Source: Sulfurovum sp. (GTDB lineage Bacteria > Campylobacterota > Campylobacteria > Campylobacterales > Sulfurovaceae). Taken from it: a stretch of DNA of 64,000 nucleotides. Below are positions 52,010-57,938 of the stretch, piece by piece; within the stretch, counting starts at the first letter, position 1, and every line of letters begins with the position of its first letter. The stretch spans positions 62,001 through 126,000 of the forward strand of contig JAMORY010000027.1 of assembly GCA_027063305.1 (NCBI GenBank). The letters run 5' to 3'. Under the pieces are notes generated by a model. The model worked only from the letters and a program-made list of their open reading frames with translations, had not been told where the DNA came from and did no database searches. The position numbers and the translations under genes were made by a program.

Positions 52010-52795
52010 TTGGAACACTTTATTTGGAATGTCGATCCGGTACTGCTACACTTAGGACCTCTTCAGCTCCGCTGGTACGGACTGCTCTTTGTCGGTTCAT
52101 TCTTCCTGGGACTCTATATCCTACAATGGATCTTCAAACGTGAAAGCAGAGATCCTGTCATACTTGACAGCCTGCTCATCTATGTCATGGTCGGTGCGGT
52201 CGTGGGTGCAAGACTCATGCACTGTCTTGCTTACGAACCTGACTTCTACCTCTCCCACCCGCTTGAGATACTCAAAGTATGGAAAGGCGGACTTGCCAGC
52301 CACGGCGGGATGCTCGGTGTCCTCTTCGCCCTGTGGCTCTTTGCCAAAAAGTACAACGAGAACTACCTCTGGCTCATCAGCCGTGTGACCATCCCCGGTG
52401 CGCTGACTGCGGCATTCGTACGCTTTGGAAACCTCTTTAACTCCGAAATCTTAGGACTACCCACTGACAAACCATGGGCGATCATCTTCGAACGCGTCGA
52501 CATGCTCCCCCGCCACCCCGTCCAACTCTACGAAGCCTTCGCCTACCTGACCCTGCTTGCCATCTTGCTGGTAGTCTACAAAAGAGTCAGCTTCAGCGTC
52601 TCTACTAAAATCCTGCCTCCACTCTTTCTAACCTATATGTTCACCGTCAGGTTCTTTTTGGAGTACACCAAGACAAAACAGGCAGACTACACATGGGACT
52701 TGCCACTGACCACCGGACAGGCGTTGAGTTTGCCGTTTATTGTGATTGGCGTTATTTGGTTTATGATCGCATTAAAACAGATACGCAGAGGGTAA
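52010..52795 (+). CDS. lgt: Prolipoprotein diacylglyceryl transferase
   Basis: First enzyme of lipoprotein maturation, in the inner membrane. 261 residues with seven hydrophobic segments and the signature block VGARLMHCLAYEPDFYLSHPLEILKVWKGGLASHGGMLGVL followed by RFGNLFNSEILGLPTD and RHPVQLYEAF. The start is a TTG at 52010 preceded by AAAAGGT; the neighbouring ATG is out of frame. Pairs in pathway with lnt at 4819. Confidence 0.94.
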   Translation: MEHFIWNVDPVLLHLGPLQLRWYGLLFVGSFFLGLYILQWIFKRESRDPVILDSLLIYVMVGAVVGARLMHCLAYEPDFYLSHPLEILKVWKGGLASHGGMLGVLFALWLFAKKYNENYLWLISRVTIPGALTAAFVRFGNLFNSEILGLPTDKPWAIIFERVDMLPRHPVQLYEAFAYLTLLAILLVVYKRVSFSVSTKILPPLFLTYMFTVRFFLEYTKTKQADYTWDLPLTTGQALSLPFIVIGVIWFMIALKQIRRG

Positions 52796-52827: not shown

Positions 52828-52849
52828 GGTGGGCAATTGCCCACCCTAC
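52828..52849 (-). repeat. REP-like element: GTAG plus 18-bp palindrome
   Basis: On the minus strand GTAG (52849-52846) then GGTGGGCAATTGCCCACC (52845-52828), the same palindrome core as at 1755-1770. Confidence 0.65.
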
Positions 52850-52856
52850 AAGAAAC

Positions 52857-52915
52857 AAAAGCTTTTTTGAAAAAAAAGCATACAATCACTCCTCACTCCT
52901 CACTCCTCACTCCTC
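52857..52915. repeat. Hairpin plus four perfect heptamers (composite repeat H)
   Basis: GCTTTTTT/AAAAAAGC hairpin (52861-52879), ATACAATC box, then four identical ACTCCTC units (52888-52915), directly upstream of the ribosome binding site of the activase gene. Confidence 0.8.
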
Positions 52916-52939
52916 ATTTACATCAAAAGGAGACTTTTG

Positions 52940-55900
52940 ATGTACTCCCTTGGCATCGACATCGGCTCCACCACCGTCAAATATGTCCTCTGTGACAGCC
53001 ACTTCCACATCATCGCCAAAGCCTACACCCCGCACGACACCAAACAAGCCCCAACGCTTCTCAAGCTTTTAGAAGAACTCTCTCAAACCCACAAAGAGGC
53101 GTATGGAAAAATTGACAAAGTCTACATTACCGGTTCGGGTGCCAGCCGCATCGCACCTACCATTAACGCCCGTTTTGTTCAGGAGGTCAATGCCGTCGTC
53201 CTTGCCGTAGAGCATCTGCATCCTGATGTGCGTTCGGTCGTAGAGCTTGGCGGGCAGGATGCGAAGATCATCCACTTTAAAGAGGCTGAAGACGGTACCA
53301 AGAGTGTCCAGACCTCTATGAATGACAAGTGTGCCTCAGGAACGGGTGCGACCATTGAGAAGTGTACTATGAAGGTGGGTATGGAGAAGGAAGAGACTGC
53401 CAAACTCAACTTCAGCGCCGAGAAACTCCACCATGTCGCCGCCAAGTGCGGTGTCTTTGCCGAAACGGACATTGTCAACCTTGTCAAGACCTCCGTACCC
53501 AGCGATGAGATCATGAACTCCCTTGCCGATGCCATCGTCATGCAGAACCTCACCGTACTTACACGTGGTAATACCCTCATGCCAAAAGTATTGCTGCTTG
53601 GCGGCCCTAACACCTACCTGCCTTTTTTACAGCAGTGCTGGCGTATGCGCATCAGCGAGCTGTGGGATGAGCGGGGTATCGACTATGACAAAGAGAAGTT
53701 GGACGAACTCATCATCGTCCCCGACAACGCCCAATACTACGCGGCGCTTGGCGCGGTCATCTTCGGTGAGGGGGAAGCCAACCACAACAAATCGTTTACC
53801 GGGCTCATCGCACTCAAGACTCTTGTTGACACCGGAAGTGTAAACAGCAATGACAATGTTGACACACCATTGGTTAAAAGCCCCAAGGAGCTTGAAGCCT
53901 TTAAACGAAACTACACCATCAAACCCTTTGTTCCACCGGTGTTAACCCAAAAAACCACATGCTTTTTAGGCATTGACGGCGGGTCAACCTCCTCTAAAGC
54001 GGTGCTGGTGGACGAGTCGGGCGAACTGCTGCTGAAGGTCTACCAACTCTCCAAAGGAAACCCCATCGCCGATACAGTCGAGCTGTTGGAGAAGCTCAAA
54101 GCGCAAGACCCCAATGGCTACTATGACATCAAAGGACTGGGAGTAACAGGGTATGCCGCCGATGTGCTTGAAGGCGCACTCAAAGCCGATGCCAACATCA
54201 TCGAGACCATCGCCCATATGAAGTCGGCACAAAAGGCGTGCGGAGAGAGCATCAATGTCATCTGCGATATTGGCGGGCAGGATATCAAGGTTCTTTTCAT
54301 GGAGAACGGGATGATGAAGAACTTCCGCCTCTCCAACCAGTGCAGCGCGGGTAACGGAACGCTGCTGCAAAGTATGGCTAAGCAGTTCGGTGTGCCTGTC
54401 GAGGAGTTTGCCGATGTGGCATTCGCCGCCAAACAGGCACCCCGTTTCAACTACGGTTGCGCAGTCTTTCTTGACACCGACCGTGTCAACTTCCAAAAAG
54501 AGGGCTTTGCCAAAGAGGAGCTCTTTGCAGGCATCACCAAAGTACTGCCTAAAAATGTCTGGCAGTATGTGGTACAAGCGCCCAACTTGGCAATGTTCGG
54601 TAAACACTTTGTCCTGCAAGGAGGCACCCAGTACAACCAAGCCGCACTCAAAGCGCAGGTAGACTACATCAAATCCCAAGTACCCGATGCCAAGGTCGAT
54701 GTGCATCCGCATCCGGGAGAAGCAGGTGCCATCGGTGCGGCACTGGAAGCGTTGAGAGTTGTGCAAGAGAGAGGCTACGCTACCTTTGTAGGGCTTGAAG
54801 AGGCGTTGCAGATGACCTACACCTCCCGAACCGACGAGTCTACCCGCTGCCACTTCTGCTCTATCAACTGTTCGCGCACCTTCATCGACACCCAGACCCC
54901 ATCGGGCAATACCGCCCGTTACATCGCGGGGTTTGCCTGTGAGGATGGTACGGTCGAGTCGGTCGAGGCGTTGCGAAAACTCAGGGATGAGCGCGCATCG
55001 CTTCAAGAGAGCGTGCCTAACCTTGTCAAAAAGGAAGCGAATAAACTCTTTGCCCCACTCTACACCCCTGCTCCTAAACCAAGTGCCGATACCCTCGTAA
55101 CCCAACAGCAGGTAAAAGTAACACTTGGTGGCTGGGGGCCGACCCTGCGCAAAAAGATCACCCGTCCCTTTATGCTTAGTACACAATCAGATGTCGCCTA
55201 CCGAAAATCCCTTAAGATCGCTATCCCCAAAGTGCTCAATGTCTATTCACTCGCCCCTTTTCTTCGTACCTACCTTGAAGCGTTGGACATTGAAAAGCAC
55301 AACATCCTCTTCTCCACCTTCTCCAATGAAGATATGTACTTAGAGGGTGCCAAGTACGGTTCGGTTGACAGCTGCTACCCTGCCAAGGTGGCACAGTCAC
55401 ACATCTACCAGCTTCTCTTTGCCAAAAAGTACGCCAAAAAAGGCATTGACTACCTCTGGTTCCCTGCTGTTACCCATCTTCCGGGTTACGTTACACATTC
55501 GATGGGACAGACCTCCTGTCCTATTGTCTCGGGTACGCCAAAAGTAGTCTACGCCGCTTTTACCAAAGAGAAAGACCTCTTTAAAGAGCGAAACATTCGC
55601 TATGTCGATGATGCGCTCGATTTTGACAACAAAGCCCTGCTCAAAGAGCAGCTCTTTGAAGTATGGGGAGAGAAACTGCGCATCACCAAAGATGAGAGCG
55701 ACTGGGCGTGTGAAGAGGGATGGAAAGCATTGCAGTTTCAAGATGATGCCATCATGCAGGAGGGGCGTGCCATCCTCGATGAAGCCGAAGCCAAGGACGA
55801 AGTGGTCATCTTGCTGCTGGGTCGCCCCTACCACTCCGACCCCGGGCTCAACCATGAAGTGCTTGATGAGTTCCAGTCTTTAGGCTTTAAAACCCTCTCG

Positions 55901-56293
55901 ATGCGTGCCATCCCCAAAGATAGCGACTATCAGATGCGCTTTTTCGGTGACGATGTCAAAGCGGGCATCATCGCCGACCCATTCGACATCCGTGATGTCT
56001 GGAAAGAGAACTTCTCGACCAACTCCGCCCAAAAGGTCTGGGCAGCCAAGTTCGCCGCCCGCCACCCCAATGTCGCCGTACTCGATCTCAGCTCCTTCAA
56101 ATGCGGTCACGACGCCCCCACCTACGCCATCATCGACAAAATCCTCGGCGCCTCCCGCACACCACACCTGACACTGCACGACATCGATGCCAACAAACCG
56201 GGTGGGTCGATCAAGATACGGGTGAAAACCTTTGCGTATACGTTGGAGCAGTACAAGAAGCAGGTAGCAAAAATAGAGGAGACCGTTCTATGA
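52940..56293 (+). CDS. Giant twin-ASKHA CoA-dehydratase-type activase (BadF/BcrA family with DUF2229)
   Basis: A 1117-residue fused protein. Residues about 1-285 and 345-625 are two ASKHA ATPase domains of the 2-hydroxyacyl-CoA dehydratase activator type (GIDIGSTTVK and GIDGGSTSSKAVL phosphate loops). Each keeps the two cluster cysteines: C131 (NDKCASGTG) and C170 (AKCGVFAETD), C468 (NQCSAGNG) and C507 (NYGCAVF), so one chain could hold the bridging [4Fe-4S] cluster of the usual homodimer. A C637-x2-C640-x3-C644 cluster follows, then a DUF2229-like region (KIAIPKVLNVYSLAPFLRTYLEAL). ATG at 52940 is chosen with AAAAGGAG seven bases upstream. It probably drives ATP-dependent electron transfer to the protein at 56421. 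Confidence 0.85.
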   Translation: MYSLGIDIGSTTVKYVLCDSHFHIIAKAYTPHDTKQAPTLLKLLEELSQTHKEAYGKIDKVYITGSGASRIAPTINARFVQEVNAVVLAVEHLHPDVRSVVELGGQDAKIIHFKEAEDGTKSVQTSMNDKCASGTGATIEKCTMKVGMEKEETAKLNFSAEKLHHVAAKCGVFAETDIVNLVKTSVPSDEIMNSLADAIVMQNLTVLTRGNTLMPKVLLLGGPNTYLPFLQQCWRMRISELWDERGIDYDKEKLDELIIVPDNAQYYAALGAVIFGEGEANHNKSFTGLIALKTLVDTGSVNSNDNVDTPLVKSPKELEAFKRNYTIKPFVPPVLTQKTTCFLGIDGGSTSSKAVLVDESGELLLKVYQLSKGNPIADTVELLEKLKAQDPNGYYDIKGLGVTGYAADVLEGALKADANIIETIAHMKSAQKACGESINVICDIGGQDIKVLFMENGMMKNFRLSNQCSAGNGTLLQSMAKQFGVPVEEFADVAFAAKQAPRFNYGCAVFLDTDRVNFQKEGFAKEELFAGITKVLPKNVWQYVVQAPNLAMFGKHFVLQGGTQYNQAALKAQVDYIKSQVPDAKVDVHPHPGEAGAIGAALEALRVVQERGYATFVGLEEALQMTYTSRTDESTRCHFCSINCSRTFIDTQTPSGNTARYIAGFACEDGTVESVEALRKLRDERASLQESVPNLVKKEANKLFAPLYTPAPKPSADTLVTQQQVKVTLGGWGPTLRKKITRPFMLSTQSDVAYRKSLKIAIPKVLNVYSLAPFLRTYLEALDIEKHNILFSTFSNEDMYLEGAKYGSVDSCYPAKVAQSHIYQLLFAKKYAKKGIDYLWFPAVTHLPGYVTHSMGQTSCPIVSGTPKVVYAAFTKEKDLFKERNIRYVDDALDFDNKALLKEQLFEVWGEKLRITKDESDWACEEGWKALQFQDDAIMQEGRAILDEAEAKDEVVILLLGRPYHSDPGLNHEVLDEFQSLGFKTLSMRAIPKDSDYQMRFFGDDVKAGIIADPFDIRDVWKENFSTNSAQKVWAAKFAARHPNVAVLDLSSFKCGHDAPTYAIIDKILGASRTPHLTLHDIDANKPGGSIKIRVKTFAYTLEQYKKQVAKIEETVL

Positions 56294-56308
56294 AACCAAT
56301 AAATAAAA

Positions 56309-56417
56309 GCATTGCAAAGCAATGCATACCAACACTCTTTACCCCAAGGGCACTTGTCCCTTCGGTCGGGCGCACTATTCACTATTCACTATTCACTAAA
56401 ACTCCTGCCGGAGTTTT
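56309..56417. repeat. Composite repeat with three hairpins (I) upstream of the dehydratase-like gene
   Basis: Hairpin GCATTGC-AAA-GCAATGC (56309-56325), box ATACCAACA, an AAGGG/CCCTT hairpin (56346-56362), three perfect ACTATTC heptamers (56374-56394), and hairpin AAAACTCC-TGCC-GGAGTTTT (56398-56417). The last one contains the GGAG ribosome binding site, four bases from it to the gene's ATG region. Confidence 0.8.
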
Positions 56418-56420
56418 ACC

Positions 56421-57938
56421 ATGAGCCTCAACTGCAGCACAGTAAAAATAACCGAAAAAAACGGTGACCTAACCTTCCTCAACCAAGCCCCAAGCCAATG
56501 GAAAGAAGCCCCCGATACCCCCATAAACTACGCTCCCAAAGAGGAGACCGTCTTCCTCTCAGGCGGGCTGACGCTGCTTCAGGACAAGCTCATTGAAGCC
56601 GCTCTCAACTCACTGGGCATCCGCTTTATCGCCCTGCCAAACCCCGATTTCAAGTCGTTTCAGACAGGCAAGGCGTTCGGGAACCGTGGGCAGTGCAACC
56701 CCACCTACTTTACAGTGGGCAACCTGGTCAAGTACCTACAACATCTACGTGACGAACAAGGGCTAAGTAGCGAAGAGATCGTACGAAAGTATGCCTACAT
56801 CACCGCCGGCGGATGCGGGCCTTGTCGTTTTGGGATGTACATTACCGAGTATAAAAAAGCGCTACGCGACGCAGGATTTGAGGGCTTCAGGCTTACCTCA
56901 TTCGACCATGAAAAGGGCATCTTTCAAGGAGAGGAACTGGAAGAACAACTACTTGACTACACACCCAAGTTCTTTGTCACCCTCATCAAAGCGGTCATCA
57001 TCGGTGACATCATCAATATGCTCGGCTACAAGATGCGCCCATACGAAGTGGAAGCAGGCAGTACTGACGTAGCGTTGGCAGTGTGTAAAGAGATCGTAGC
57101 TGAGGCGTTCTTGAACCGTAGCTCACTCATCAAAGCGCTTTGGAAGTGCCGTGGTGAACTTGGCAAAGTCAAACTCAACCGCCTGCAACCCAAACCCAAA
57201 GTGATGGTCATGGGGGAGTTCTGGGCGGCGATGACCGAGGGTGACGGCAACTACAACCTCTACCGATTTTTGGAAGCCGAGGGTGCCGAGTGCATTCCCC
57301 AACCCATCCTCAACCGTCTGATGCTAAGCATCTGGGAAGCGGAACAGGCGCTTAAGAACAAAGAGCGAACTGCCCATGAAGGTGAAAAGGCCGTCGACTT
57401 CTCCCATGCCAAGAGCCGTCTGCTCATTCGTACCGCCAAAGCGGCGGTCAAGACCCACTTTGCGCTTTATGCCAAAGCCATCGGACTCCATGACTATGAG
57501 GTGCCTAATATGGAAAAACTTGCCGACCTTGCCAAGGACTACTACACCCTTGAGTGCAGCGGCGGAGAGGGGCACTTGGAGGTCGCACACCTCATCGAAG
57601 CGGTCAAACACAACCTTGCGCATCTGATCATCTCGGTCAAGCCGTTTGGGTGTATGCCAAGTTCGGCAGTCAGTGACGGGGTACAGTCACTAGTGACGGC
57701 ACACTACCCCCAAGCAAACTTTCTGAGCATCGAAACCTCGGGTGAAGGGGCGGCAAACTTCTACTCCCGTGTGCAAATGGCGCTTTTTAAGGCAAAACAG
57801 GCAGCCAAAGAGGAGTGGGAGGCATTGGAGAAACCGGAATACATTCCGGAAAAAGTACACAATTACCTCTTTCAACCCAAAAATGAGAAGATAGGAAGCG
57901 CGGCACGTCTTCTTGCGGCAATTGAGCAAAGAATATAG
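56421..57938 (+). CDS. 2-hydroxyacyl-CoA dehydratase-like iron-sulfur protein (partner of the activase)
   Basis: A 505-residue cytoplasmic protein of the HgdB/DUF2229-related class. Cysteines likely to bind clusters are C92 (GQCNP), C132 and C135 (GGCGPCRFG), C379 (ECSGGEGH) and C411 (FGCMPSS). The pairing with a twin-ASKHA activase suggests an ATP-driven reductase or dehydratase; the substrate is unknown and need not be a CoA ester. It follows the activase by 127 bases filled with a repeat element. ATG at 56421 with GGAG at 56410-56413. Confidence 0.8.
   Translation: MSLNCSTVKITEKNGDLTFLNQAPSQWKEAPDTPINYAPKEETVFLSGGLTLLQDKLIEAALNSLGIRFIALPNPDFKSFQTGKAFGNRGQCNPTYFTVGNLVKYLQHLRDEQGLSSEEIVRKYAYITAGGCGPCRFGMYITEYKKALRDAGFEGFRLTSFDHEKGIFQGEELEEQLLDYTPKFFVTLIKAVIIGDIINMLGYKMRPYEVEAGSTDVALAVCKEIVAEAFLNRSSLIKALWKCRGELGKVKLNRLQPKPKVMVMGEFWAAMTEGDGNYNLYRFLEAEGAECIPQPILNRLMLSIWEAEQALKNKERTAHEGEKAVDFSHAKSRLLIRTAKAAVKTHFALYAKAIGLHDYEVPNMEKLADLAKDYYTLECSGGEGHLEVAHLIEAVKHNLAHLIISVKPFGCMPSSAVSDGVQSLVTAHYPQANFLSIETSGEGAANFYSRVQMALFKAKQAAKEEWEALEKPEYIPEKVHNYLFQPKNEKIGSAARLLAAIEQRI

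Follow-up and report, generated by a model that had tools for sequence, protein, structure and literature searches.

A two-gene PlsA/Ger-type iron-sulfur enzyme next to lgt in Sulfurovum, a probable maker of ether lipids

The subject of this work is a gene pair in a 64,000-nt stretch of the genome of a Sulfurovum sp. (contig JAMORY010000027.1, positions 62,001 to 126,000; hereafter the window). It is formed by P1 (52940..56293, 1117 aa) and P2 (56421..57938, 505 aa), both on the plus strand, as are their domains and lgt below. By analogy with PlsA/PlsR and Ger, two enzymes that make ether lipids, P1 and P2 are likely to constitute one ATP-driven iron-sulfur enzyme that reduces the esters of phospholipids, yielding vinyl or alkyl ethers. 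The set of domains is already known from those enzymes, and the Sulfurovum form is, on sequence grounds, a divergent clade of a known enzyme kind. On the other hand, the presence of lgt, the gene for prolipoprotein diacylglyceryl transferase, directly upstream of P1-P2 is a new observation. If the proposal is true, abundant sulfur oxidisers of the Sulfurovum group in vents and sediments would have ether membrane lipids, of which our literature search found no earlier report, with implications for lipid biomarkers and for the spread of PlsA-like enzymes. Moreover, thanks to the conserved link with lgt, what was a loose redox finding becomes a claim that can be tested directly on phosphatidylglycerol and lipoprotein anchors.

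Domain architecture, cysteines and fold

P1 begins at the ATG at 52940, although a TTG is also present at 52937, and contains a first ASKHA activation domain (Act1, residues 1-330, 52940..53929), a second one (Act2, residues 339-612, 53954..54775), a linker with four cysteines (54848..54940) and a reductase half (Red1, residues 745-1117, 55172..56290). Two BcrAD_BadFG stretches of the BadF/HgdC type of ASKHA domain were detected in the protein (PF01869, 1.3e-72), which also scores 220.8 bits against TIGR00241, over a cut-off of 125.4, and so belongs with the HgdC-type acyl-CoA dehydratase activases, whereas residues 759-989 match DUF2229 (PF09989, 6.5e-45). The structure predicted for P1 (mean predicted local distance difference test, pLDDT, 82; predicted template modelling score, pTM, 0.70) finds its best counterparts in the PDB through Act2, with MbdQ of 3-methylbenzoyl-CoA reductase at the top (Z 27.5), followed by HadI and HgdC (Z 25-27.5 for the three).

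The case of P2 is different, as neither Pfam nor NCBIfam gave any match for it, and searches of the PDB sequences with the protein and with its profile returned chance matches only, so that a comparison of folds was needed. The ten best PDB matches of the P2 model (pLDDT 81, pTM 0.85) are all chains of the benzoyl-CoA reductase (BCR), 2-hydroxyacyl-CoA dehydratase (HAD) and double-cubane cluster protein (DCCP) fold, with Z values of 6.6-10.8 against 5.4 for the best unrelated chain. The first one is 2-hydroxyisocaproyl-CoA dehydratase (Z 10.8 over 284 residues, 4.5 A), and BzdNO (Z 9.9) and MbdNO (Z 9.3) are also among them. The HGD-D family (PF06050), sought as well in P1 at E values of up to 0.001 and in P2 at up to 5, gave no match, for which reason the likeness of P2 to the 2-hydroxyacyl-CoA dehydratases (HgdAB/HadBC) is one of fold only. 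Red1 would share the BCR/HAD fold too, going by homology (hhalign, together with cross-hits between HGD-D and DUF2229 on Monoglobus).

Cysteine conservation was followed through 41 relatives for P1 and 45 for P2, counts that take in the window's own proteins. The cluster cysteines of Act1 (C131, C170) and Act2 (C468, C507), those of the linker (C637-x2-C640-x3-C644 and C667) and those of Red1 (C812, C860, C1055) are invariant in all 41 proteins. The linker motif, also found in 94% of the PlsA-type set, suggests that its four cysteines probably make an extra [4Fe-4S] site. In P2, C92, C132, C135 and C411 are kept in 45 of 45 relatives, and C222 and C243 in 43-44. The loop of C132-C135 was modelled with low confidence (pLDDT below 50), which is unsurprising given that the cluster is absent from the model.

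An earlier note on this DNA, written from the letters alone, had already placed both open reading frames (ORFs) correctly and had recognised the two ASKHA domains in a single chain with their four cluster cysteines, the DUF2229-like half and a neighbour whose cysteines suit iron-sulfur clusters, all of which we recover here. Its description of an ATP-driven activase with an iron-sulfur partner of the dehydratase/reductase type also agrees with what the sequences suggest. The CxxCx3C motif that it pointed out is likewise there (C637, C640, C644), but its fourth partner, C667, had been overlooked.

The same cysteines bear on the idea that P1-P2 is a double-cubane-cluster-type (DCCP-like) reductase acting on a small molecule. 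DCCP chains match the P2 model at Z 9.3-9.9, and P2 has the nearly invariant C222 and C243 besides its four invariant cysteines. However, the double cubane ([8Fe-9S]) of BzdN uses six cysteines of one subunit (PMC11971306), while Red1 conserves just three, the place of the two near-invariant cysteines of P2 is uncertain, and two further cysteines in the C-terminal part of P2, C291 and C379, are kept in just 36/45 and 26/45 relatives. Since the near-core status of the genes in the genus and their linkage to lgt (see below) also favour a role at the membrane, we regard a DCCP-like function as very unlikely.

Relationship to PlsA/PlsR and Ger

PlsA/PlsR and Ger are characterised enzymes of lipid esters (PMC12838417, PMC9702350, PMC11150832). 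The first converts diacyl phospholipids into plasmalogens and the second yields alkyl ethers, activities that were confirmed with the genes expressed in E. coli (PMC12838417, PMC11150832). The plasmalogen synthase is encoded by two genes in C. perfringens (CPE1195/CPE1194) and by a single fused gene in E. faecalis, L. cremoris and B. longum, and all of them yield plasmalogens in E. coli. Ger is a PlsA-like enzyme giving saturated ethers, also in E. coli (PMC11150832, PMC13274423).

For comparison we used PlsA-type proteins of Listeria, a reported plasmalogen producer (PMC9702350), Fusobacterium, Haliovirga and others from the plasmid collection. All five regions of the Sulfurovum pair align in order with their PlsA-type counterparts (hhalign 97-100%): Act1 (100%, 1.2e-59), Act2 (100%, 3.7e-56), the linker (97%, 1.1e-10), Red1 (100%, 3.6e-48) and P2, which corresponds to the second reductase half, Red2 (99.9%, 7.4e-31). 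The identity in these domain alignments is 19-34%, and tblastn comparisons of P1 with the PlsA-type proteins cover 98-100% of its length (E 1e-93 to 1e-115). P1 and P2 together keep all 14 cluster cysteines of the PlsA type, two per activation domain, four in the linker and three per reductase half, leaving C132 as the sole invariant cysteine not shared, and they show the order Act1-Act2-Red1-Red2 in one or two adjacent genes that is typical of the family. Several homologues carry all the domains in a single chain of about 1430-1490 aa. As Red1 and Red2 are two halves, and such fused forms exist, it seems preferable to take P1 and P2 for a single enzyme, and not for the activase with a separate partner of the earlier note.

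It has been proposed that two activation domains mark Ger (PMC13274423). The two PF01869 stretches (BB) of P1 agree with that mark, but PlsA-type proteins of Listeria, Haliovirga and one of our loci (L027) also carry two, and consequently counting activation domains fails to tell Ger from PlsA. Ger itself (T. maritima Tmari_0479, D. alkenivorans SHJ90043) was compared by its published description only, according to which it is PlsA-like and has two PF01869 activation domains, as P1 does; the D. alkenivorans enzyme differs in being one 159-kDa chain, in contrast to the two genes of Sulfurovum. Among 14 control genomes, DUF2229 was above the cut-off in four: Thermotoga maritima, from which a verified Ger comes; Lactococcus lactis, which is close to L. 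cremoris, whose PlsA has been verified; and two Deinococcota, Thermus composti and Deinobacterium chartae, where an oxygen-sensitive family was unexpected.

The earlier note had described the pair as uncharacterised and its substrate as open, and had stated that this view would fall if a homologue of equal architecture were already characterised and its substrate known. PlsA/PlsR, acting on diacyl phospholipids, and Ger, producing alkyl ethers, are largely such homologues, and both statements have to be given up; the divergent Sulfurovum clade may make the same product.

The architecture, the cysteines, the class of fold, the homology to the PlsA type and the lgt-P1-P2 linkage are observations, and for the nature of the clusters, the route of the electron, the substrate and the product we go by PlsA and Ger. 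On this basis we propose that P1 and P2 would work as a single oxygen-sensitive enzyme of this kind. Act1 and Act2 would pair within the chain, with C131, C170, C468 and C507 as ligands of a single [4Fe-4S] cluster, and would accept an electron from ferredoxin or flavodoxin. Binding or hydrolysis of ATP would then drive the electron to a very low potential, possibly via the cluster of the four-cysteine linker, and on to a Red1-Red2 heterodimer, whose three-cysteine clusters may leave an open iron site. There, a glycerophospholipid could be reduced at one of its acyl esters, likely the sn-1 ester of phosphatidylglycerol or phosphatidylethanolamine, by a ketyl-type radical, giving a vinyl ether (plasmalogen) after loss of water, or an alkyl ether after further reduction.

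Several points weigh against this proposal. The identity with PlsA-type proteins, 28% for P1 and 19-25% for P2, is below the screening level of 30%. The phylogeny, which the earlier note had suggested as a check, separates the Sulfurovum form from the PlsA-type clade by a branch with full support, although this is a quick tree with long branches and no known root. The two Red2 motifs of P2, GGCGPCRFGMY and KPFGCMPSS, differ from GGGCRxxNYI and QPFxCLPNH of the PlsA-type proteins in our alignment, and are invariant or nearly so across the Sulfurovum-type clade. In the papers searched we found no lipid data for Sulfurovum and, in particular, no analysis in which ether lipids were reported. As for lgt, common ancestry or recombination at this gene can also produce the linkage. 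In addition, lgt is absent from the surroundings of the PlsA-type loci of other Campylobacterota, so the linkage does not characterise the family. Given that P1-P2 lies outside the PlsA clade, does not reach 30% identity and lacks both GGGCRxxNY and QPFxCLPNH, we class it as a deep branch of the PlsA/Ger-type family and not as PlsA itself. Compared with PlsA/PlsR, it shares the order Act1-Act2-four-cysteine linker-Red1-Red2, the two-gene or fused organisation, the cluster cysteines and the BCR/HAD fold, and it differs in its separate clade, the extra C132, the Red2 motifs, longer chains and the lgt linkage. Other Campylobacterota carry PlsA-type proteins as well, either split or fused, and one fused form is 53% identical to the Listeria protein.

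The altered Red2 motif, and the fold that P2 has in common with HadBC and BzdNO, could also be expected if an enzyme of the same class acted on another ester or thioester, such as an acyl-CoA or some other hydroxyacyl compound, in the manner of HgdAB or benzoyl-CoA reductase. We consider this improbable, because no genes for CoA-ester or aromatic degradation were found among the scanned neighbours, as the earlier note had already observed, the CoA-dependent members are annotated with separate single-ASKHA activases, and the linkage to lgt points to a lipid. To our knowledge, there is no fused four-domain form among the CoA-dependent members.

Linkage to lgt and distribution

The lgt gene of the window occupies positions 52010..52795 (PF01790, 3e-63; TIGR00544 above its cut-off). 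The analysis of neighbouring genes, another check advanced by the earlier note, was possible in 44 loci of relatives with enough upstream DNA, where lgt is the gene previous to P1 in 41 by ORF calling and in 42 when including L042, whose lgt was seen by tblastn. Across loci, the spacing between lgt and P1 is mostly -49 to +22 bp, usually an overlap, and in most of them P1 and P2 have a single base in common. The spacers of the window are longer (about 140 bp for lgt-P1 and 127 bp for P1-P2), and both contain short tandem repeats.

The substrate of Lgt is phosphatidylglycerol. The link suggests that phosphatidylglycerol is a substrate of P1-P2 and that lipoprotein anchors can carry an ether chain. 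In this line, ether bonds are commoner in phosphatidylglycerol than in phosphatidylethanolamine in the Ger-bearing D. alkenivorans (PMC11150832). A stronger version, in which P1-P2 would be an ether synthase dedicated to lipoproteins or phosphatidylglycerol, either giving ether lipid anchors together with Lgt or making ether-phosphatidylglycerol for it, with a new ligand pattern in Red2 through the addition of C132, seems to us unlikely.

Alternatively, and concerning lgt alone, P1-P2 could still be an ether-lipid enzyme, as in our proposal, yet be unrelated to lipoproteins or phosphatidylglycerol, the linkage being a mere product of descent, or lgt serving as an anchor for recombination. This is a serious possibility, although we lean somewhat away from it. 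In its favour, many bacteria cannot do without lgt, which often keeps its position, some lineages that retain lgt (G204, genus g5) seem to have lost P1-P2, and two loci (L061, L071) hold P1-P2 with no lgt upstream. Against it, the genes mostly overlap in relatives down to 55-60% identity while the outer neighbours change, the called gene preceding lgt belonging to one cluster in 20/39 loci at most, and the gene following P2 in 8/36. The gene truly shared upstream of lgt is probably panB, given that in L036 the called ORF preceding lgt runs antisense to panB and to an adjoining ORF. Furthermore, in three Nitratifractor-like loci (L023, L077, L078), the ones to which the reading of an extra copy applies, two lgt copies flank P1-P2; the one before P1 groups with the P1-linked lgts of Sulfurovum, and the other, of the native type, falls outside. 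The extra lgt of these genomes arrived together with P1-P2, beside the native one.

Close relatives are encoded in 59 loci with the P1-P2 pairing preserved, which indicates that the pair is not a product of chance. The nearest named relatives of P2 are records of Sulfurovum, Nitratifractor and Hydrogenimonas. A pattern scan with two peptides detected P2 of the Sulfurovum type in 35/42 genomes of the genus and in 12/52 other genomes of the family, so it is near-core in the former and patchy around it; as the scan relied on these two peptides, genomes without a match may still carry the gene. A search of viral contigs with P2 found zero relatives. One locus (L080:4273-5709) has a P2-like gene preceded by a subtilase gene instead of P1, with a native-type lgt directly after.

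Other activase and reductase systems

The activases HgdC, HadI, MbdPQ and that of DCCP-R share with P1 the ASKHA fold and two cluster cysteines per domain (Z 22.8-27.5), but they are homo- or heterodimers of separate chains, whereas P1 joins both domains and a reductase half in one chain. In turn, the subunits of BzdNO, HadBC and DCCP have the fold of P2 and three cysteines for an open-site [4Fe-4S] cluster, differing in that they have no match to P2 at the sequence level and act on CoA compounds or small molecules.

Some candidate relatives were rejected. The match on a Sulfurovum mangrovi plasmid (L095:7759-9852) is a different system, composed of a single-ASKHA activase and a protein of the 2-hydroxyacyl-CoA dehydratase family; its neighbours are two 4Fe-4S proteins, TonB receptors and an RND transporter. 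Selenium-linked activases are separate single activases with no link to DUF2229 shown. Finally, a protein of 1282 aa from a Paraclostridium bifermentans plasmid (L128:5004-8852) has two ASKHA domains and DUF2229 without the linker CxxCx3-4C, and, given its extreme branch, was treated as another paralogue; it is encoded near Crp/Fnr, cupin, hemerythrin, ferredoxin and hcp genes.

Repeats in the spacers

The spacers separating lgt, P1 and P2 are filled with tandemly repeated heptamers (CACTCCT and CACTATT units), at window positions 52889-52925 and 56375-56398. In the 2.03-Mb genome, counting overlapping matches, the 18-mers CTCACTCCTCACTCCTCA and CACTATTCACTATTCACT occur 52 and 23 times, with 0 occurrences for the backwards-read control of CACTATTCACTATTCACT. 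The palindrome TGGGCAATTGCCCA appears twice in the window (0.03 expected), at 1756-1769 and, in the lgt-P1 spacer, at 52830-52843.

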